Shown here: in pieces, positions 2 to 26,221 of the stretch | Position numbering within the stretch: the first letter of the stretch is position 1 | Layout of the letters: each line of letters begins with the position of its first letter | NCBI RefSeq assembly: GCF_014205225.1 | Contig: NZ_JACHNB010000001.1 | Location: 6,677,501 to 6,741,500, forward strand | Reading direction: 5' to 3' | Origin: Actinoplanes octamycinicus | Lineage (GTDB): Bacteria > Actinomycetota > Actinomycetes > Mycobacteriales > Micromonosporaceae | Length of the DNA stretch: 64,000 nucleotides | The notes under the pieces: generated by a model | The model's database searches: none | The model's input: the letters and a program-made list of their open reading frames with translations, nothing else | Told to the model about the DNA's origin: nothing | Position numbers and translations under genes: made by a program

Positions 2-2215
2 ATCGTGGTGGTGGACAACTGCGAGAGCCTTCTGCCGGACCCGGACGACGCGGTGGCCGAGATCTTCACGCTGTGCCGCCGCCTGCTCGACGCGGACCCG
101 CGAACCAGATTCGTCTTCACCACCCGCGAGTCGCTCCCGATCCCGTTCGAGCGGCCCGCCGCGGAGCGCACGCTGGGCGCCCTGCACCCGGCCGACGCGG
201 TCGAGCTGGTCGCCGAGGTGATGAAACAGCACGGCTGGACCCCGCCGGAGGACGACGCGGGCGAGGCTCCGCAGCAGATCACCGACTTGGTCGAGGCGGT
301 GAACCGGCACGCCCGGGCGCTGGTGCTGCTGGCCCGGGAGGTCGCCCAGCGCGGGGTCACCGCGACCACCGCCGACCTGCGCTCCCTGATGACCCACCTG
401 GAGGTCCGGCATCCCGGGGATCGAGAGAATTCCCTGTACGCCAGCGTGGAGCTGTCCCTGCGCCGCCTCTCCCCGGAGTCCCGCCGCCACGTGCGAGCGG
501 TAGCGGTCTGCCACGGCGGCGTCCACTTCGCTGTCCTCACCGTGTTGACCGGCCTCACCGGCGACGCCCTCCTGCGAGTGACGGCCGAAGTGATCGATGT
601 CGGTCTGGGCGAGGATTTGGGCGACGGTCATCTGCGCCTCGACCCGGGCCTCGCCCCGTACCTGCTCGGCGAACTGACAGCCGGCGAGATCGAAGCCCTC
701 CGCGAAAAGTGGATCAAGGCCATGGCCGGGCTGACCGAGCAGATGAACAACGACCCGGACGTCTATCGCGCCCGCCGGCTTACCTCGGTGGAACTGCCCA
801 ATCTGGTGGCCATGCTGGACCTGCTCCCGGGGCCGTGGCCGCCGGACGACGTGGTGACGCTCGCGCATCACGTGGAGTGCCTGTTGGAGAACCTGGGCCG
901 GCCGCGAGCGCTGGCCCGGGCCGTCCAGGCGCGCGAAGCGGCCTCGGCGGAGCTGAACGGTTGGTCCGCGGCGCGGTTCCGATCCGATGGGGCGACCATC
1001 GATCGCCTGATGGAGCGCGGCGATCTCGGCGCCGTGCGCGCCGCCTCCGAACAGTTGCTCGCCAGGTGTCTCGAGGCGGGCGAGCAGGCCTACCCGCTGG
1101 CCGCGAGTGACATCGCCGCGGCATACCTGCGCCTGGGCCGGTCGCTGAACGCGATCGGTAACGCCGAGGCGGCACTGGCGCCGCTGGCTGAGGCACGCCG
1201 GCGATTCACGGCGATGACCGATGGCACCGATGATCGGATGATCAGCCTGGTGATCACCGAGATCGGCAACAGCTGTGTCCGCCTGGGCCGCCTGAGCGAC
1301 GCCGCCACCGCCTACGAGGAGGCCATCGAGCTGACGTCGAAGGCCGGTGAGCTGCGGGACGTCGCGGTCAACAAGGCTCAGCTGGCCACCGTCCGGCTGG
1401 AGCAGAAGCGGTACGACGAGGCGCTGCGGGGCTACCGGGAAACCCTCGACACCTTCCGGACCATGGGCGAGCCGCTCCGGGTCGCCGACTCCTGGTACCA
1501 GATCGCCCTCGTGTACCAGACCGCCGGTCAGTGGGATGCCGCCGAGCAGGCGCACCGGGAGGCCCTGGCGATCCGCGTCCGGGAGGACGACGTTCCTGGC
1601 CAGGCCAACAGCCTTCTCGGACTGGGCGTCGTGTCGGCAAACCGCGAGCGGTACCAGGACGCGGTCGCGTTCTTACGGCAGACCGCTGAGTTGCGCGCGC
1701 GGATGAACGATCGCCGGGGCGAGGGGAGCGCCCGTGGCAACCTCGCCCAGGCGCTGACCTTTCTCGGTCGTTACGACGAGGCCCGCCGTGAGATCGAGTC
1801 GGCGATCGCCCGCCTGGAACCGTTCGGGCATGCCGATGAGATGTGGATGGCCTGGCACATGGCGGAGCGGCTGGAGACGGCGGCCGGCCGGGCCGAGGAG
1901 GCGCTGGCCGCCCGGCGAAGGGCGAGGGACATCTACCTCGCCTACCGGCGGGCCGGCGGCGAGAGCCAGGCCAGGCTGGGCTTCGCCGTGGCGTTCTTCA
2001 CCCAGCAGGCCCTGCAGCACGGCCGTGGTCAGGCACTGCAAGCGCTGAACGAGTCCACCGCGCCGGAGGTGCCGCCGTGGTCGCTGGTCAAGCGTCAGAT
2101 CCGGGCCGTTCTCGCCGGCGACCGGGCCCGGATCGAGGCGGGTGAAGCCGACCTGGACTTCCTGGACGCCGCTGAGATCCGGCTGATGATCGAAGTGCTC
2201 GACCGGGACGGATAG
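2..2215 (+). CDS. STAND NTPase with TPR repeats, 5'-truncated (paralogue of the next gene)
   Basis: The reading frame is open from the first base, so the N-terminus lies outside the window. The visible part starts in the Walker B strand (hydrophobic run ending VVVDN) of an NB-ARC ATPase, continues through the 'FTTRES' sensor-like motif, a winged-helix-like region, and about 400 residues of helical repeats with TPR character. It aligns end to end with the C-terminal half of the gene at 2237, including the ending 'DLDFLDAAEIR', so the lost part probably carried TIR and CHAT domains too. It lies 21 bp upstream of that gene on the same strand and is probably cotranscribed. By analogy with STAND proteins it should sense a ligand through the TPR region and oligomerise. 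Function is inferred. Confidence 0.85.
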   Translation: MVVVDNCESLLPDPDDAVAEIFTLCRRLLDADPRTRFVFTTRESLPIPFERPAAERTLGALHPADAVELVAEVMKQHGWTPPEDDAGEAPQQITDLVEAVNRHARALVLLAREVAQRGVTATTADLRSLMTHLEVRHPGDRENSLYASVELSLRRLSPESRRHVRAVAVCHGGVHFAVLTVLTGLTGDALLRVTAEVIDVGLGEDLGDGHLRLDPGLAPYLLGELTAGEIEALREKWIKAMAGLTEQMNNDPDVYRARRLTSVELPNLVAMLDLLPGPWPPDDVVTLAHHVECLLENLGRPRALARAVQAREAASAELNGWSAARFRSDGATIDRLMERGDLGAVRAASEQLLARCLEAGEQAYPLAASDIAAAYLRLGRSLNAIGNAEAALAPLAEARRRFTAMTDGTDDRMISLVITEIGNSCVRLGRLSDAATAYEEAIELTSKAGELRDVAVNKAQLATVRLEQKRYDEALRGYRETLDTFRTMGEPLRVADSWYQIALVYQTAGQWDAAEQAHREALAIRVREDDVPGQANSLLGLGVVSANRERYQDAVAFLRQTAELRARMNDRRGEGSARGNLAQALTFLGRYDEARREIESAIARLEPFGHADEMWMAWHMAERLETAAGRAEEALAARRRARDIYLAYRRAGGESQARLGFAVAFFTQQALQHGRGQALQALNESTAPEVPPWSLVKRQIRAVLAGDRARIEAGEADLDFLDAAEIRLMIEVLDRDG

Positions 2216-2236: not shown

Positions 2237-5200
2237 GTGGTGGAGGTGGGCAGCGGCGCGGGCGGGGACAGTGGACCGGTGACGACGTCGACGGGTGAGG
2301 TCTTCATCTCGTGTGCGGCGGAGGACCGGGAGTTCGCCGCCGACCTGCGCCGACGTCTCGAAGAACTGCGGATCCCGGTCTGGGCCGGCCCGCGCGAGCT
2401 GCGCCCGGGCAGCAGACCCGACCCGGAGGCCGCCACCGCCGTCGCCCGCGCGGGACACGTTCTTGTCGTGCTCAGCCCCAGCACCGTCAACTCCCCGCAG
2501 GTCCGCCGGGAGATCGCCGCCGCGCTGGCCCGCACCGGCGACGGCGTCCGGGTGATTCCGCTGCTGCTGCCCGGCATCACCCCGGACGCCCTGGACCTGT
2601 GGTTCCCGGAGCGCCCGCTGGCCGTCCCGGTCGAGGCCGGCCCGGGCGGCCTCAGCGTCGCCCTCCCGGCCCTGCTCGCCGCCCTGGGCCGGCAGGCGCC
2701 CGACGACCCGCAGGCCTTCGCGCTGCCCGCGGCGAAACCGGTCGAGGAGTTGATCCTCAAGCTGACCGACCCGCGGATGGAGACCGTCGACGGCTGGCGC
2801 CGCGCCCGGGCCACCGCGACCCTGATCTACGAGCCGGCCCGCCCCGGCGCCCGCGACGTGGAGAGCCTGCCGTTCCCCTTCACCGCCCCGCTCGGCCCGA
2901 TCGAGACCGCCGACCTGCGCTGGTACCTGGAGGAGTACCACCTCTGGCCGGTCGGCCAGTTCACCCGCCGCGCCGACGGCATCCAGAAGCGGCTCCCGTC
3001 CTGGGGCGGTGATCTCTACGCCGCCGCGCTCGCCGACGAGGAGGCCTGGGAGGCGCTGACCGCCTGGCAGCACGCCGCCGGTGACGCCGACCGCCGGTTC
3101 TCGGTGATGGTCTACGGCGACCTGCCCCGGGCCGCCGGCGAGCGGGACCAGGCCGCCGCCCGGGAGGCGGCCACCGAGCTGCTGTCGCTGCCCTGGGAGC
3201 TGCTGCACGACGGCCGGGGCTGGCTCTTCCAGGGCCGGGAGCCGGTCCGGGTCCGGCGCCGCCTGCCGAACCGGCGGCGGCAGCCGGACCGCCCGACCGA
3301 GCTGCCGGTGCGGATCCTGCTGGTCAGCCCGCGTCCCGAGGTCGACCGGGACGGCGATCCGATCGCCTATCTCGATCACCGGACCGGCGCCCGGCCGCTG
3401 GTCGAGGCGCTGGAGAACCTGGGCGAGCTGGCCCGGCTCACCATCCTGCAGCCACCGACCTACGCCGGGCTGCAGCTCGCGCTGCAGGAGGGAGATCAGG
3501 GATTTCCGTACGACGTGGTGCACTTCGACGGCCACGGCGCGATCGGCACGCTGAGCTTCGAGGATCCGGCCGACCGGGAACGGCGGCGGGTCGACGTGGT
3601 GGACGCCGCGCAGCTGGCCGGGCTGGTCCGCCGGCACCGGATCCCGCTGGTCCTCCTGGAGGCCTGCCGGACGGCGATGTCGGAGATGGACCCGACCGCG
3701 TCGGTCGCCGCGCGGCTGCTCGACGAGGGGGTGACCTCGGTTGTCGCGATGAGCCACAGCGTCCTGGTGGAGACCGCCCGCCGGTTCGTGCAGAGCTTCT
3801 ACGCCGAGCTGGCCCGTGGCGCCCGGGTCGGCGCCGCGATGCTGGCCGGGCAGCAGGAGCTGTACGCCGACCGGGCGCGTGGCCGGGTGCTCGGGGCCGG
3901 TGAGCTGCGCCTGCAGGACTGGTTCGTCCCCGTGCTCTACCAGGAGGAACAGGACCCGCAGCTGATCACCAAGGTGCCGCCGGACGCGGTCCTGCGGCTG
4001 GAGGCCAAGCGCCGCCGGTACCGTCTCGGTGACCTCCCGGACCCGCCGGAGCACCGGTTCCGCGGCCGCGGCCGGGAACTGCTCGCCCTGGAACGGCTGC
4101 TGCACCGCCATCCCTGGGCGGTGGTCCGCGGCATCGGCGGGCAGGGCAAGACCGCCCTCGCCGTCGAGCTGGCCCGCTGGCTGGTCCGCAGCGGACGGTT
4201 CGAGCGGGCCGCGTTCGTCGGCCTCGACCGGCACCGCGACGCCCGGGCGGTGCTGGACACTCTCGGCCGTCAGCTGGCCGGCCCCCGCTACACCGTGGCG
4301 CAGTACCCCGACCTGGACCTCGCCGTCCAGCCGGTCGCCCGGGCGCTCGCCGACCACACCACCGTCGTGGTGGTCGACAACGGGGAGAGCGCTGCGGCCG
4401 TACCGGAAATCTTCGATCTTTGCCGTGGACTGCTCGACGCGGATCCGGGCACCCGGCTGATCTTCACCAGCCGCGAGTCGCTGCCCGCCCCGTTCGATCG
4501 GCTGGGCCGGGAGCGGGAGCTGGGCGCCCTGGACCGGCCGGACGCGGTCGACCTGGTCGGCGAGGTGATGAAACAGCACGGCTGGACGCCGCCGGAGGAG
4601 GACGCGGGGGAGGCGCCGCAGCAGGTCACCGACCTGGTCGAGGCGGTCGGCCGCCACGCCCGCGCGCTGGTGCTGCTGGCCCGCGAGGTGGCCCGGCGCG
4701 GGGTCACCGCGACCACCGCCGACCTGCGGTCGCTGATGGCCCACCTCGACGAGCGGCACCCCGGCGATCGGGAGAATTCCCTGTACGCCAGCGTGGAGCT
4801 GTCCCTGCGCAGGCTCAGCCCGCTCTCCCGCGAGCACGTCCCGGCGGTCGCGGTCTGCCCCGGCGGGGTCCACCTGAGCGTCCTGGAGGCGATCACCGGT
4901 CTCCGGCTGGACGGTGCCCGGCAACTGGCCACCGAGCTGATCGAAGTCGGTCTGGCCGAGGACCTGGACAACGGCCACCTGGGTCTGGACCCGGCCCTGG
5001 CGCCCTACCTGCTCGGCGAACTGCGAGACAAGCCGGCCGCCGATCTCCGCGAGCGCTGGGCCGACGCGATGCTCGCCCTGACCGCCCGGCTGCGGCGCTG
5101 GGAGTTCACCGCGGACGCCGACCGGGCCCGGGAGCTGACCGTGCTGGAGCTGCCCAACCTGCTCGGCATGCTGGACGTGCTGGCCGCGAGCCGGCCCGCG

Positions 5201-6577
5201 CAGGAGGTCGTGGCCGCCGCCAACCACGTGGTGGCCCTGGTGGAGGATCTGGGCCGGCCGGGCGCGGTGGCGCGCGCGATCCGGGTGCGCGACCAGGCCA
5301 GGCCGGATCTCACCGGCTGGTCCGAGGCGCGCTTCGACGCCGACGTGACCGACATCTTCCGGCTGGTCGACGACGGTGAGCTGCCGGCCGCGCTGACCGC
5401 CGCCCGGCGGCTGGTCGACCGGTGTCTGGCGGCGGGCGAGGACGCCTATCCGCACGCCGCCCACGACATCGCCGCCGCCTATCACCACCTGGGTCAGGTG
5501 GTGATGGAGGGCAACGATCCCGAGGCCGCGCTGGTCCCGTTCGCCGAAGCCCGCCGACGTGCCGAGGCGTTGCCGGGCGAGGACGGCGACGGGCTGGACA
5601 TCGCGGTCGTCGCCGACATCGGCAGCTGCATGCTGGACCTGGGCCGGTTGATCGACGCGGGGGCGGCCTTCGAGGAGGCGGTCGCGCGTTCCACGCGCGC
5701 CGGTGAGGTCCGGGCCGCGGCCATCCACAAGGCCGGGCTCGGCTCGGTCCGGCTGGAGCAGTTCCGGTACGCCGAGGCGCTGCGTGCCAACGAGGAAGCC
5801 CGCGACACCTTCCAGGCGCTGGGCGAGCCGCTGATGGTCGCCGGGTACTGGTACCAGATCGGGCATGTCCACGTCGTGGCCGGGCGGCCCGGCGACGCGG
5901 AGCACGCGTTCCGGGAGTCGCTGGCCATCCGGGTCCGGGAGGGCGACCTCACCGGGCAGGCCGCCTGCCTGCTCGGCCTGGGCGACAGCTATGGAATGCG
6001 GGGCCGGTTCGAGGACGCGGCCGCCTTCGCACAGCAGGCGGCGGACGTGTTCGTCCAGCTGAACGACGTCGTGGCGGAAGGTGTCGCGCGCGGCAACCTG
6101 GCCGGGGTGCTGATCGGTCTGGGCCGGTACGAGGAGGGCCGCCGCGAGATCGAGCGCGCCTTCGAGTGCTTCGAGCCGTACGGGGCAGCCGTGCAGCCGT
6201 GGAAGATCTGGAGCACGCTGGAGCGCCTGGAGCGGGCGGCCGGGCGTACCGGAGAAGCCTCCGCGGCCCGGAAGCAGGCGATGGACCTCTACCTGGCCTA
6301 CCGTGAGTCGGGCGGCATGACCCAGGCGCCGCTGGGTCCGTCGGTGATGTTCTTCGTCCAGCACATCTCCCGGCACGGGCGGCAGCAGGCTCTCCGAGTG
6401 CTCGACGAGGCGGAGCCGCCGGACCGGCCGCCGTGGCCGGTGTTCCGGCGCCAGATGCGGGCGGTGCTCACCCGCGACCGTGACCAGCTCATCGCCGGCG
6501 AGGACGACCTGGACTGCCTGGACGCCGTCGAGCTGCGGATCCTGGACCGGATGCTGGACGGCGACAGTCAGTGGTGA
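2237..6577 (+). CDS. TIR-CHAT-NB-ARC-TPR protein (predicted STAND immune/signalling protein)
   Basis: This 1446-residue protein has four parts. Residues 20-140 form a TIR-like fold (VFISCAAED; VLVVLSPS; RREIAAAL). Residues 190-565 form a CHAT caspase-like protease with the His motif HFDGHG (His433) and Cys motif LLEACRT (Cys477). Residues 605-880 form an NB-ARC ATPase with Walker A GIGGQGKT (632-639) and Walker B VVVVDN (710-715). The rest is TPR-like. The known model is that ligand binding by TPR triggers NTP-dependent oligomerisation and activates the N-terminal effectors. Two effectors, TIR (often an NADase) and CHAT (protease), on one chain is unusual. Whether the TIR is catalytic cannot be settled by eye; it may be an adaptor. 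The GTG at 2237 is taken as start; a second in-frame GTG at 2279 still precedes the TIR domain. A hairpin follows the stop directly. Confidence 0.88.
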   Translation: MVEVGSGAGGDSGPVTTSTGEVFISCAAEDREFAADLRRRLEELRIPVWAGPRELRPGSRPDPEAATAVARAGHVLVVLSPSTVNSPQVRREIAAALARTGDGVRVIPLLLPGITPDALDLWFPERPLAVPVEAGPGGLSVALPALLAALGRQAPDDPQAFALPAAKPVEELILKLTDPRMETVDGWRRARATATLIYEPARPGARDVESLPFPFTAPLGPIETADLRWYLEEYHLWPVGQFTRRADGIQKRLPSWGGDLYAAALADEEAWEALTAWQHAAGDADRRFSVMVYGDLPRAAGERDQAAAREAATELLSLPWELLHDGRGWLFQGREPVRVRRRLPNRRRQPDRPTELPVRILLVSPRPEVDRDGDPIAYLDHRTGARPLVEALENLGELARLTILQPPTYAGLQLALQEGDQGFPYDVVHFDGHGAIGTLSFEDPADRERRRVDVVDAAQLAGLVRRHRIPLVLLEACRTAMSEMDPTASVAARLLDEGVTSVVAMSHSVLVETARRFVQSFYAELARGARVGAAMLAGQQELYADRARGRVLGAGELRLQDWFVPVLYQEEQDPQLITKVPPDAVLRLEAKRRRYRLGDLPDPPEHRFRGRGRELLALERLLHRHPWAVVRGIGGQGKTALAVELARWLVRSGRFERAAFVGLDRHRDARAVLDTLGRQLAGPRYTVAQYPDLDLAVQPVARALADHTTVVVVDNGESAAAVPEIFDLCRGLLDADPGTRLIFTSRESLPAPFDRLGRERELGALDRPDAVDLVGEVMKQHGWTPPEEDAGEAPQQVTDLVEAVGRHARALVLLAREVARRGVTATTADLRSLMAHLDERHPGDRENSLYASVELSLRRLSPLSREHVPAVAVCPGGVHLSVLEAITGLRLDGARQLATELIEVGLAEDLDNGHLGLDPALAPYLLGELRDKPAADLRERWADAMLALTARLRRWEFTADADRARELTVLELPNLLGMLDVLAASRPAQEVVAAANHVVALVEDLGRPGAVARAIRVRDQARPDLTGWSEARFDADVTDIFRLVDDGELPAALTAARRLVDRCLAAGEDAYPHAAHDIAAAYHHLGQVVMEGNDPEAALVPFAEARRRAEALPGEDGDGLDIAVVADIGSCMLDLGRLIDAGAAFEEAVARSTRAGEVRAAAIHKAGLGSVRLEQFRYAEALRANEEARDTFQALGEPLMVAGYWYQIGHVHVVAGRPGDAEHAFRESLAIRVREGDLTGQAACLLGLGDSYGMRGRFEDAAAFAQQAADVFVQLNDVVAEGVARGNLAGVLIGLGRYEEGRREIERAFECFEPYGAAVQPWKIWSTLERLERAAGRTGEASAARKQAMDLYLAYRESGGMTQAPLGPSVMFFVQHISRHGRQQALRVLDEAEPPDRPPWPVFRRQMRAVLTRDRDQLIAGEDDLDCLDAVELRILDRMLDGDSQW

Positions 6578-21487: not shown

Positions 21488-22384
21488 TCACATGATGTTG
21501 CCGCCGCGCCAGCGGTGGTTGAAGGCCGGCATCGCACCCGGGCGGTCCGAGGTGCGCAGCTCGAACAGGTCCTGGGTGAGCTGCTCGCGCAGCGGCGGGT
21601 TGCCCTCCAGCGCGGACGGCTGCACCACCGTGTAGGCCTCCTCGGCGTAGGTGAGCAGGAACTCCGGTGACAACCGGCGAACCCGGCCGGCGCTCAGGCA
21701 GAAGAACTCCCGCTGCGAATACCCGGTGATCGCGACGCAGTGGCTGGACAGGCTGCCCGGGGTGGCGTCGTAGACCGGGCCGTAGCCGGGCACGTACCAG
21801 GCGTCGCGCGGCACACCCTTGCCGTCCTTGATCGACTGGGGCAGGGCCAGGCCGATCAGGACGCCGCCGAACCGCAGCACCGCCTCGCGGACCTGGTCCA
21901 GGTTGCGCGGCTCGATCTCCAGGAAGGCGCGGGCGTCGGGCAGCAGGCCGGCCAGCGGCCGCTCCTGGTTCACCCACAGCTTCAGGGCCAGCAGCAGGCT
22001 GGCGCCGAAGTCGTTCTGCGCCTTGCGCCGACCGGAAACGGTCGAGTGCTGGTCGCGGCCACGGGTCCCGCGGTGGAACGGCGACACCTTCTCGTAGATC
22101 TTGAGGGTGTCCTCCAGGGTCGGCGTGTACTGCTCCTTCGCCGCCGCGTACCAGGACTGGGCGAGCAGGGCCATCGCGGCCGGCACGCAGTTCTGGAATC
22201 CGACCTCGCCGAGCGGCTCGCCGGCGGCCAGGTCGACCCGCAGGTCGCCGAGGTGGAAGCGGCTGTCGGGCTGCAGGCCGTACGCCGGGGTGTCCGGCGG
22301 CTGATCCAGATATTGCAGATACTGGCTCATCTGCAGGGTGCGGATGTCGGTCTCGGCGGCCAGACGGCCGGCCAGAGCGTCCAT
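21488..22384 (-). CDS. Papain-like (C1-type) cysteine peptidase homologue, cytoplasmic
   Basis: A 298-residue protein with no signal peptide. 'GFQNCVPAAMALL' (Cys66, with Gln64 before it) looks like the C1 nucleophile helix, and 'SLSSHCVAITGYS' (His215) looks like the C1 His strand. The following segment keeps the C1 layout, but the usual NSWG reads LSAG, so the catalytic Asn appears lost. Assignment is by motif order only. ATG 22384 has GGAAGGA upstream. It is divergent from the subtilase gene at 22637, with repeats between them. Activity and substrate are unknown; it could be the partner or target of the subtilase. Confidence 0.6.
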   Translation of the reverse strand: MDALAGRLAAETDIRTLQMSQYLQYLDQPPDTPAYGLQPDSRFHLGDLRVDLAAGEPLGEVGFQNCVPAAMALLAQSWYAAAKEQYTPTLEDTLKIYEKVSPFHRGTRGRDQHSTVSGRRKAQNDFGASLLLALKLWVNQERPLAGLLPDARAFLEIEPRNLDQVREAVLRFGGVLIGLALPQSIKDGKGVPRDAWYVPGYGPVYDATPGSLSSHCVAITGYSQREFFCLSAGRVRRLSPEFLLTYAEEAYTVVQPSALEGNPPLREQLTQDLFELRTSDRPGAMPAFNHRWRGGNIM

Positions 22385-22406
22385 GTCGGATCCTTCCTCG
22401 TCCTCA

Positions 22407-22505
22407 CTTCGCTTCGCGCTCGTTGCGCGTGTCCTCGTTGGGGCGTCTCTTCGCTTCGCGCTCGTTGGGCGTGTCATCGCTCCGTGGTCGTTGGGCGTGT
22501 CATCG
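22407..22505. repeat. ~42-bp direct repeats in the divergent peptidase promoter region
   Basis: A 31-bp segment at 22407-22437 recurs with two mismatches at 22449-22479, and its latter half recurs again at 22480-22505 (core CGTTGGGCGTGTCATCG). It lies between the divergent papain-like and subtilase genes and so could carry operators, or be intergenic repeat DNA typical of this genome. Confidence 0.85.
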
Positions 22506-22636
22506 CTTGGCTCACTGAGCGTGCTGAGGCTAACGCCGATCGTGGTCCGTGGCGCTGCCGGATCTGCGACAGCCGCCGATGTATCTGCCCGGTCCGGCAC
22601 CGGCTCTCTTCCTGGCAGAGGGGAAGGACAACCGAT

Positions 22637-23923
22637 ATGTCGATGGACAAGTTCGAGCCGCGGCTGGTCGAGGCGATCGGCGCGGAGACCGCACGGGCCC
22701 GGGTACGCGGATTCGCCGCGACCGAGGTCACCGAGGGGCAGAAGTTCGAGGTCACCATCTCGCACCACGAGGCGCTGTCCGCGCCCGAGGGCCACGGCGG
22801 CCCGGCCGGCCTGGAGCAGTTGCAATTGCAGGCGCAGGCCAGCCAGCAGCCGATCATCGACCGGATCGACGGGCTCGGAGTGAACGCGCGTCGGCACACG
22901 CTGACCAACGCGGTCACCGCCGAGCTCACCCCGGCCCAGATCGAGCAGGTGGCCCAGCTCGACGAGGTGAAGCTGGTCCGGCTGGAACGCCTCGACAAGG
23001 TGACCGCGATGGATCAGAGCGTCGCGGTGATCGAGGCACGCGAGGCCTGGGAGGAATTCCGGACCGCCGGGTCCGGGGTACGGGTCGCGGTGCTGGACAC
23101 CGGCATCGACGGCAGCCACCCGGCGCTGTCCGGCAAGGTGGTCGACGAGTTCAGCACGGCCGGCGAACCGGTCAGCGTGCCCGGCGACCACGGCACCCAC
23201 TGCGCCGGCACGATCGCCAGCAACGACGCGGTCTACCGCGGGGTCGCCTGGCAGGCCGACCTGATCAACATCAAGGTGCTGACCGCGGCCGGCATGGGCA
23301 CGCCGGCCGGTGTGGTCGACGGCCTGGAGCAGGCGGTCCGCCGCAACGCGCAGGTGGCGAGCCTGAGCCTGGGCTGGAGCGAGATCTTCCACGGATGGGT
23401 GTGCAACGACGCCGACTGCATCCTGTGCCAGGCCGCCGACAACGCGTCCCGGCTCGGCGTGACCGTGGTGGTCGCGGCCGGCAACGAGGGCAACGTGGGC
23501 GCGCCGACCGGGCAGCTGAACATCCGGCACCCCGGGGCGGCCCGCCGGGTGATTACCGTGGGAGCGGTGGACAAGGGCAAGCAGCTGGCCGCGTTCTCCA
23601 GCATCGGACCGGGTAGCGGGCGGGTCGGGCCGGGCAGCCCGATCCGACTGACCAAACCGGACCTGGCCGGTCCCGGCGTGGACATCGTCTCGTCGGTGCT
23701 CGGCGGCGGGTTCGCCTCGTTCAACGGCACGTCGATGGCGACCCCGCACGTGGCCGCGGTCGCCGCGCTGGTGATCGAGCAGAACCCCGGGATCCGGCCG
23801 ATGGTGGTCAAGAAGCTCCTCGAGGACACCGCGGAGCGGCTCTCCTACGGACCGAACGAGACCGGGTACGGCCTGGTGAACGCGTTCGCCGCGATGCTGC
23901 CGATCCTGGGCAAGGCGGCGTGA
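22637..23923 (+). CDS. S8 subtilisin-like serine peptidase without signal peptide
   Basis: A 428-residue protein. Residues 30-120 resemble an inhibitor-I9 propeptide ('HTLTNAVTAELTPAQIEQVAQL'-like, shown in part). The catalytic domain follows with Asp154 (VLDTGIDGSHP), His185 (GDHGTHCAGT), oxyanion Asn283 (AAGNEG) and Ser366 (NGTSMATPHVAA). No signal peptide or membrane segment is visible, so it appears to act in the cytoplasm or leave by another route. A CX4CX2C cluster (Cys256, 261, 264) sits in a loop and could bind metal. Start ATG 22637 follows GGAAGGA at nine bases. It is coupled by a four-base overlap to a stand-alone I9-like gene. Confidence 0.88.
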   Translation: MSMDKFEPRLVEAIGAETARARVRGFAATEVTEGQKFEVTISHHEALSAPEGHGGPAGLEQLQLQAQASQQPIIDRIDGLGVNARRHTLTNAVTAELTPAQIEQVAQLDEVKLVRLERLDKVTAMDQSVAVIEAREAWEEFRTAGSGVRVAVLDTGIDGSHPALSGKVVDEFSTAGEPVSVPGDHGTHCAGTIASNDAVYRGVAWQADLINIKVLTAAGMGTPAGVVDGLEQAVRRNAQVASLSLGWSEIFHGWVCNDADCILCQAADNASRLGVTVVVAAGNEGNVGAPTGQLNIRHPGAARRVITVGAVDKGKQLAAFSSIGPGSGRVGPGSPIRLTKPDLAGPGVDIVSSVLGGGFASFNGTSMATPHVAAVAALVIEQNPGIRPMVVKKLLEDTAERLSYGPNETGYGLVNAFAAMLPILGKAA

Positions 23924-24222
23924 GCGCCGACAAGGTGGACCCCGCGATCCTCCGGGTGGAGGGGGATCGCGGGGTGCCGGTCGTCATCGAGCTGCACGCC
24001 GTGGCGGCCGGGGAGGCGGGGCTGGCCGGGCTCGCCGAGCAGGTGCACGACGCGCAGGCCGGCGTCTTCGAGCACCTGAACCGGCTCGGCGTGACCGGCG
24101 CGCGCGGGTTGACGCTCACCAACGCGGTGGTGGTCACGCTCAGCAGGGATCAGATACTGGAGATGGCAGCCCGCTCCGACGTACGAAAAATCCTCCTCGA
24201 CGAACCGAGACAGGTCACCTGA
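23920..24222 (+). CDS. Stand-alone inhibitor-I9-like protein
   Basis: This 100-residue protein matches the prodomain of the subtilase directly upstream: 'LTLTNAVVVTLSRDQILEMA' here against 'HTLTNAVTAELTPAQIEQVA' there, followed in both by a strand ending in a conserved 'V(K/R)'. I9 propeptides fold their protease and then block its active site. A separate copy in the same operon (GTGA overlap at 23920-23923) suggests a diffusible inhibitor or chaperone for the S8 enzyme, that is, an immunity function. GTG start. No secretion signal. Confidence 0.75.
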   Translation: MSADKVDPAILRVEGDRGVPVVIELHAVAAGEAGLAGLAEQVHDAQAGVFEHLNRLGVTGARGLTLTNAVVVTLSRDQILEMAARSDVRKILLDEPRQVT

Positions 24223-24593
24223 CCGCTCCGGAGCCGCCGCCTGTGCCGCACCGCTCCCGGCTTCGTCCTCGGTCCCGTCCTCTGCCGCGCCTCCGGCTCC
24301 GCCCTCCGCCGCGCCCCCGGCTCCGCCCTCCGCTGCACCTCCGCTCCGCCCTCCGCCGCGCCCCCGGCTCCGCCGTCCGCTGCACCCGGCGCCGTCCACC
24401 GCTGCACCTCCGCTCCGCCCTCCGCCGTGCGCTCAGTTCCCGCCTCGGCGCGCTGTCGGCCCCGGCCACGCGCCGCCTCGGTGTCGCTCGGTGAAACCGC
24501 GCGTGAACGTTTCCCGCGGCGGGCTCCGCGCACAGCGGATCCCGCGCCCCGGGCGTGTTCTCTACGACGAGCACCCGACGGGGGAGGAAATGC
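24223..24593. other. Gene-free interval with degenerate repeats
   Basis: No credible gene; frames here only give low-complexity Ala/Gly/Arg/Pro translations. It holds the repeat block 24297-24432 and the promoter of the sigma factor operon. Confidence 0.6.
24297..24432. repeat. Degenerate ~47-bp repeats, pyrimidine-rich
   Basis: A unit beginning CTCCGCCCTCCGCCG recurs at 24297, 24344 and, after a small insertion, 24413. The top strand is almost purely C/T/G with CTCCGC motifs. It lies downstream of the solo-I9 gene. Confidence 0.8.
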
Positions 24594-25112
24594 ATGGAGT
24601 TCGAGGAGTTCGCGGCCGCGCGGTCACCCGCCTTGCTGCGCTACGCGATGCTGCTCAGCGGGAACCGGGAGGAGGCCCGCGACATCGTCCAGGAGGTCCT
24701 GGCCAGGGCGATGTTGAAATGGCCCAGAATCACCTCCGCTGGTGAGCCGCACGCCTACGTCCGCCGGATGGTGACCAACGAGTTCCTGTCGCTGCTGCGG
24801 CGCCGCCGCCGACTCTCCTTCGTCCCTTTGGAGCAACGCGATCTCGACGGTCCGCACGCGCCCGTGACGCCCGCTCATCAGGTCGCCGACGACGAACTGT
24901 GGCATCTGCTCGGCACCCTGCCCAGGCAGCAGCGCGCGGTGATCGTGCTGCGCTACTACGAAGGCCTCAGCGACCAGGAGATCGCCGACGTGCTCAACTG
25001 CAGCCCGGGCACCGTGCGTGGGTACGCCAGCCGGGCCCTCGCCACCCTTCGGATCGAACTGGTCGACACCTCCGCCGGATATCCGGCCATCGCTCATGGG
25101 GGAGCACTGTGA
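24594..25112 (+). CDS. SigE-family RNA polymerase sigma factor
   Basis: The 172-residue ECF-type sigma factor has region 2 ('LLRYAMLLSGNREEARDIVQ') and region 4 ('LPRQQRAVIVLRYYEGLS', 'NCSPGTVRGYASRAL'). It matches the SigE family common in actinomycetes, which are usually encoded with a membrane partner. ATG 24594 has GGGGAGGA at 24581-24588. The stop overlaps the next gene's start by one base (TGATG). A GTGAAC...GTTTCC stretch 90 bp upstream could be part of an autoregulated promoter; this is not established. Confidence 0.88.
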   Translation: MEFEEFAAARSPALLRYAMLLSGNREEARDIVQEVLARAMLKWPRITSAGEPHAYVRRMVTNEFLSLLRRRRRLSFVPLEQRDLDGPHAPVTPAHQVADDELWHLLGTLPRQQRAVIVLRYYEGLSDQEIADVLNCSPGTVRGYASRALATLRIELVDTSAGYPAIAHGGAL

Positions 25113-26221
25113 TGCGGACTCTGGAAGACCTGCGGGAAACCCTGGACCGGCACGCCGGCGACACCCCGGCGGACGGTCGTCTGCTGCCTGACGTGCGGGG
25201 GCGGGCGGCTCGCCTGCGCCGCCGCCGCACGATCACGCGGGGCGTGGCGCTGGGCGCGGCAGTAGCGGTCGCGGCGGGCGTGAGCCCCTTCGTCCTCCGG
25301 TCTCCGTCGCCGGATCCGGCGCCTGCCGCGGGGCGAACCGTCACCCGCACCCCCGCTCAGACGAGCATCGCCCTGGCCGACGGCTCCCCGTTCATGATCC
25401 TCAACCGGGAGAGCACGGCGACCGGGCAGCACGTGACGGTCCGCAACATCGGTGACGTGCAGGCGAAGCATCCGGGTGAGGCGGGGCTCAACCCCGGCGG
25501 AGAGGTGCTCGCCTTCGAACCGGGCGCCTTCGACCCGGAGACCTTGAGAAAGGGGACCCCGGTAACGATCGGCGCGCACCAGGGCTGGTACGTCCCGCAG
25601 CTGCACGTCGGGGCCGAGAACTCCAACTTCGACGGCTCGTGGGTCGGCTGGCGCGACGAGACCGGCATGTGGGTGCTGGTCGGCACGCTCGGCCCCAGCA
25701 AGCGCGACGATCTGGTGGCGGTGGCCCGCGACGTGCGGATCGTCGAGGCCTCCGACGCGATCGCGCCGATCCGGCTCGGCTGGGTGCCGCCCGGACTGAA
25801 GATCCAGTGGGCCTCGGGGAATCCGTCGAAGACCGGGGGCTTCGGCGCGTCCTTCAAGCTCGGTTATGACGGGGAGAAGGGACCGGACCTGTCCTATTTC
25901 CCGAGACGCGACGCGGTGACGGCCCTCGCACTGCAGGTCGGCTCGCAGAGCCCGGACTGGCTGAACTATCAGCACGAGCTGGACGGCCAGAAGCCGGAGA
26001 AGATCAATGGGGCGGAGGTGTGGTACCTGCCGCGGCCCAACGGTCTTTTCGACAGCCCGGAACCGGGGGCGGACATGATCGTCCGTTTCGGTGGGTGTGT
26101 GGCGACCCTGCACGTCCGCGACAGGGCCCAGATCACCGAGGCCGACCTGGACCGCATGCTGCAGAACGCCACCCTCGGCACCTGCGATGACGCCGAGGAC
26201 TGGCAGCCCTTGCTGGACTGA
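25112..26221 (+). CDS. Single-pass membrane protein, putative anti-sigma partner
   Basis: A 369-residue protein: a short cytoplasmic N-terminus rich in Arg ('RGRAARLRRRRTITRG'), one membrane segment (about 43-62), and a large extracellular part with a Pro/Ala linker and two globular stretches. This arrangement and coupling to a SigE-family sigma gene are typical of the partner proteins of these sigma factors. No zinc-type anti-sigma motif is visible in the N-terminus, so anti-sigma activity is inferred from context only. Start ATG 25112 overlaps the sigma stop. Confidence 0.7.
   Translation: MRTLEDLRETLDRHAGDTPADGRLLPDVRGRAARLRRRRTITRGVALGAAVAVAAGVSPFVLRSPSPDPAPAAGRTVTRTPAQTSIALADGSPFMILNRESTATGQHVTVRNIGDVQAKHPGEAGLNPGGEVLAFEPGAFDPETLRKGTPVTIGAHQGWYVPQLHVGAENSNFDGSWVGWRDETGMWVLVGTLGPSKRDDLVAVARDVRIVEASDAIAPIRLGWVPPGLKIQWASGNPSKTGGFGASFKLGYDGEKGPDLSYFPRRDAVTALALQVGSQSPDWLNYQHELDGQKPEKINGAEVWYLPRPNGLFDSPEPGADMIVRFGGCVATLHVRDRAQITEADLDRMLQNATLGTCDDAEDWQPLLD

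Follow-up and report, generated by a model that had tools for sequence, protein, structure and literature searches.

The question raised by this locus is how a subtilase that appears to stay in the cytosol is held in check, and whether the genes on either side of it take part. The window is a 64,000-nucleotide stretch of Actinoplanes octamycinicus (contig NZ_JACHNB010000001.1, positions 6,677,501 to 6,741,500), and the named relatives of the locus are Actinoplanes. The host genome is a single 10.28 Mb contig with 23 subtilase (S8) matches, so that a subtilase as such is unremarkable there. The initial annotation read three neighbouring genes, for the subtilase, a free-standing homologue of its prodomain (solo I9) and a papain-like protein, as one candidate new system. 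The reading favored here, with a probability of roughly 0.6, is narrower: a leaderless subtilase zymogen and a lineage-restricted, co-translated, prodomain-derived inhibitor acting in trans form a two-gene unit, which lies beside an older papain-fold gene. The features on which this reading depends are the following.

22637..23923, plus strand: leaderless subtilase (S8) zymogen, 428 residues, ATG start; prodomain at about residues 1-123, followed by the catalytic domain (from the start codon, Pfam and the family alignment)
23402..23428, plus strand: CX4CX2C motif of S8 (C256, C261, C264), between the SLG and AAGN segments (from the alignment)
23920..24222, plus strand: solo I9-like protein, 100 residues, GTG start, homologue of the S8 prodomain
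23920..23923, plus strand: GTGA, the four-base overlap of the S8 stop and the I9 start
21488..22384, minus strand: papain-fold protein without the catalytic Asn, 298 residues, a conserved neighbour probably outside the S8-I9 pair

The subtilase and its overlapping partner

The S8 protein matches PF00082 with 168.4 bits against a cut-off of 21.8 (E 2.8e-49, Pfam scan). In an alignment of 25 sequences, consisting of the query and 24 picked from 120 relatives listed, D154, H185, S366 and N283 are invariant. By comparison with subtilisin, the first three are taken to be the catalytic triad and the last the oxyanion Asn, in agreement with the intact triad of the initial annotation. No hydrophobic stretch is present at the N-terminus, where the best Kyte-Doolittle mean over 11 residues is 0.49 among the first 35 windows, and K5, E7, P8 and R9 recur in at least 90% of the aligned sequences. 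Together, these two features suggest that the lack of a signal peptide, already noticed in the first description, is family-wide and not the product of a misassigned start. The cytosolic location and autoprocessing of S8 are putative, as judged from the sequence. The protein remains below the cut-off of the mycosin (type VII secretion system) model TIGR03921 (130.5 against 278.75 bits), and its prodomain below that of Pfam I9 (12.8 against 21.2 bits).

The CX4CX2C motif is present as described and is invariant in all 25 aligned sequences, two of them from Vicinamibacterales/Vicinamibacteraceae, while H252 is nearly invariant. On this alignment, the motif is a signature of the S8 family, for which the scans made here gave no specific curated Pfam or NCBIfam family above cut-off beyond the general Peptidase_S8. 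Relatives at 58-75% identity come, among the matches listed, from Phytohabitans, Pseudonocardia, Nonomuraea, Saccharopolyspora, Kineococcus and Vicinamibacterales.

The solo I9 protein has no Pfam match at E <= 10, and the PF05922 cut-off is not reached. Its homology to the S8 prodomains is established by a hold-out hidden Markov model, with an E-value of 1.5e-9 against a best of 0.31 in 1000 shuffles, which bears out the idea of a free copy of this prodomain type. It is confidently predicted to adopt the propeptide fold, with ProN-Tk-SP as the nearest structure, and is placed only weakly in the tree. The four-base overlap with the S8 reading frame is as annotated, and the same overlap of frame ends is found in two further loci, L032 (8499/8502) and L033 (8294/8297). 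A prodomain profile run over the 4,984 open reading frames of the collected loci returned only the S8 proteins of this family and the known solo copies. The Pfam I9 domain has six matches in the host genome, four above cut-off, each inside an open frame of at least 412 residues. No report of an operonic solo I9 from bacteria was found in the open-access listings searched.

In the proposed mechanism, S8 would be made in the cytosol as a zymogen, with the fused prodomain serving as folding chaperone and temporary inhibitor. After this prodomain is cut and degraded, the solo I9 would inhibit the matured S8 in trans, and the translational overlap would deliver the inhibitor together with the protease. 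The pair, found in a small Actinoplanes group, lies upstream of a presumably older papain-fold gene, which genomes without the protease retain together with its own upstream block. The inhibition of S8 by the solo I9 is putative. By analogy with the intracellular subtilisins, regulated intracellular proteolysis would be the default physiological role.

Conflict and decay as alternatives

An alternative function of such a pair, which is considered unlikely, is a toxin-immunity or conflict module, with S8 as a harmful intracellular effector and the solo I9 as its antidote. The four-base overlap and the cytosolic appearance of S8 would suit this role, as would its sporadic distribution: the gene was found in 4 of 300 family genomes (E <= 1e-90) and in 3 of 67 genus genomes (E <= 1e-40). 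Only the window copy was recovered from 394 genomes of the class (E <= 1e-90), from 396 of the phylum (1e-70) and, when P0071, a relative from Pseudonocardia, was the query, from 328 of the order (1e-80); in the searches outside the genus four or five candidates were scored per genome, and the genome draws may overlap. The absence of S8 from plasmids at 1e-60 argues against a conflict module, as do the viral contigs, where the single-protein query found nothing and the alignment query 51 loci with at best 36% identity. CHAT proteases act in bacterial conflict, and in one Phytohabitans-like genome (G031) a TPR-CHAT gene (CHAT E 3.1e-32) precedes S8 in the same orientation and ends 83 bases before its start, which would favor such a role. 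In the 18 kb read there, however, this S8 is accompanied by no solo I9 and no papain relative. The records are also very unequal, with four solo I9 genes against thousands of S8 relatives, and the fused prodomain should already restrain S8 without a separate antidote. We know of no bacterial system in which a stand-alone prodomain serves as the immunity protein.

A PADLOC scan of the three proteins likewise speaks against the conflict module, since it returned only subtilase and IetS matches, both to S8. The likeness to IetAS is confined to the subtilase domain (IetS PDLC02197, E 4.9e-18): S8 has 428 residues against the 749 positions of the profile and reaches 44.1 bits against the NCBIfam IteS cut-off of 900. 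The candidate for an IetA-type partner, an AAA/LuxR ATPase two genes from S8, has no PADLOC match at 1e-5, with the genes 3′ of I9 outside the scan. Of two papers on bacterial conflict systems that contain peptidases, the available part of PMC7159879 names subtilisin a single time and that of PMC8195603 not at all.

The solo I9 may also be a relic, left by partial duplication of the S8 prodomain and now decaying without function, which is quite unlikely. It is the faster-evolving and shorter copy and is restricted to a single lineage, as might be expected of a decaying gene. The frame is nevertheless open in all four known copies, the ratio of nonsynonymous to synonymous substitution rates (dN/dS) is below 0.5 in each of the three pairs tested, and the predicted fold is confident. 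The I9 frame is under constraint.

The papain-fold neighbour and the CHAT-linked genes

The papain-like gene is transcribed divergently from S8, with the two starts 252 bases apart, and its product is predicted to have the papain fold. All 18 aligned relatives have C66 and H215, whereas the position of the Asn after the His, located by motif order, holds L, R, V, A, F or Q in every one of them. The retention of Cys and His and the lack of Asn, first read from the single sequence, are shared by these relatives. The protein has no Pfam C1 match, and the family has no specific curated Pfam or NCBIfam entry above cut-off in the scans made here. It carries the additional invariant cysteines C216 and C229 and a near-fixed C-terminus of the RWRGGNIM type (window 21488-21520, minus strand; W292, G294 and I297 invariant in 18 of 18), which is modelled with a predicted local distance difference test score below 50. 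Relatives were not found in viral contigs. A search of 197 class genomes returned its own copy and one distant match, G438, at E 3e-10. This distant papain-fold relative (L088 771-1436, minus strand) has Ile-Ser-Trp-Gly at the site where papain itself carries Asn-Ser-Trp-Gly, and the small contig that carries it has genes, named by eye, of possible phage type.

The surroundings of this gene include three further features.

22511..22540, minus strand: conserved block 5′ of the papain-like gene, presumably promoter-like, in genomes with and without S8 (11 upstream regions, 10 genomes)
22434..22508, strand not applicable: 26-bp tandem repeat, 2.8 copies, in a stretch missing from L032 and L033
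18527..21460, plus strand: AAA/TPR/LuxR-type regulator, tail-to-tail with the papain-like gene in 8 of 10 genomes

A three-gene protease cascade, in which the papain-like protein, S8 and I9 would work jointly, is very unlikely. Of the 300 family genomes searched, 10 carry the papain-like gene, and all 10 belong to one genus. In three of these an S8 match (E <= 1e-40) adjoins it every time, and the adjacency of all three genes in three genomes, together with a probable fourth set, is what a cascade would lead one to expect. The other seven, one of which (G216) is 93% complete, have no S8 match at this threshold and contain an ABC-transporter-like set (four genomes) or an APH-like gene (three genomes) as the upstream neighbour, both named by eye. 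The upstream block is kept in 10 of 10 genomes, including those without S8, which places the S8-I9 pair upstream of a pre-existing promoter-like block. The lack of the Asn is a further point against a joint cascade, and the Phytohabitans-like genome, absent from the papain-like matches of the family search, has S8 without either partner. The linkage of the three genes was rejected on their distribution. One of the refuting outcomes named in the initial annotation has occurred, in the seven papain-positive genomes without this S8 and in the Phytohabitans-like S8 without partners. The three-gene system of the initial annotation is not supported; its leaderless subtilase, separate prodomain homologue and family-wide CX4CX2C motif stand, and the synteny in three, probably four, genomes leaves the three-gene idea a low chance. 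The two-gene variant is real and modestly interesting.

One observation weighs against setting the papain-like gene apart from the pair. The fourth full set (P0006, P0026, P0146) probably shares one 9,848-base contig, and its identities to the window are discordant, at 91% for S8, 86% for I9 and 78% for the papain-like protein. The discordance would be explained either by transfer of the pair between lineages to an identical position or by replacement of one side through recombination.

The tail-to-tail arrangement of the regulator is found with a 1.2 kb gap in L035; L015 has a different gene at this position, and the contig of L013 ends. On the other side, tandem repeats of 24, 47 and 69 bp follow the solo I9 (window 24275-24427), and then an ECF-type sigma factor with the next gene (24594-26221, plus strand). 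In L032 and L033 neither this sigma factor nor its next gene follows the solo I9, and a TetR-like gene takes their place.

The idea that this S8 family acts as an executioner protease in the cytosol, with switches that differ by lineage, namely TPR-CHAT in the Phytohabitans-like genome, an operonic I9 antidote in Actinoplanes and CX4CX2C as a metal or redox switch near the active site, is highly improbable. The Phytohabitans-like locus (L031 6975-16153) contains an FHA gene, S8, TPR-CHAT and a second S8, together with genes named by eye as a sigma factor and a patatin-like protein; the second S8 (E 1.8e-27) lies across from the first and has no match to the prodomain profile. The host genome has 16 CHAT matches, one of them less than 4 kb from another S8 and none beside the S8 of the window. 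In that cassette (L096 6794-11899), which resembles the Phytohabitans-like arrangement, TPR-CHAT is divergent from the other S8 and a sigma factor, assigned partly by position and by eye, and no member of the window's S8 family is present. CHAT linkage as a rule for S8 was rejected, the adjacency in G031 being a single case. Elsewhere in the window, a TPR protein (5-2215, plus strand), whose frame probably starts upstream of the window, in a region with a CHAT match, and a TIR-CHAT-NB-ARC/AAA-TPR protein of 1446 residues (2237-6577, plus strand) are presumably conflict-system-like.

Known inhibitors and the meaning of the pair

According to the portion of PMC6993865 available, a subtilisin is usually inhibited potently by its own propeptide. 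The same portion lists three stand-alone members of I9, each from a eukaryote, in addition to Plasmodium SUB1-ProM and the mimic TgMIC5. The three classic examples, Pleurotus POIA1, the yeast peptidase B inhibitor and Arabidopsis SPI-1, have no significant sequence similarity to propeptides. In contrast to the eukaryotic proteins, SUB1-ProM included, the solo I9 is bacterial, its gene overlaps that of the protease it presumably targets, and its sequence is recognisably homologous to the prodomain of that protease.

The propeptides of intracellular subtilisins (ISPs) are short. A close parallel is offered by these enzymes and the Bacillus inhibitor IPI, which likewise combine a leaderless subtilase with a reported intracellular inhibitor (PMC3901451, PMC6220982). 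In the accessible parts of these sources, the intracellular subtilisin is described with a LIPY/F motif in the ISP propeptide (PMC6220982), and IPI has an Ig-like fold, lies near a subtilisin gene in no completely sequenced species and is doubted by its authors as a genuine intracellular inhibitor (PMC3901451). The papain-like protein resembles papain-fold proteases such as xylellain and the cathepsins in its predicted fold, Cys and His, and differs from them in the missing Asn, the absence of a Pfam C1 match, C216/C229 and the RWRGGNIM-like C-terminus.

If the solo I9 inhibits S8, the pair would show the birth of a stand-alone inhibitor, in which a prodomain was copied from a zymogen and retained as a co-translated brake. 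It would also serve as a small model, from bacteria, of the I9 inhibitors found in eukaryotes.
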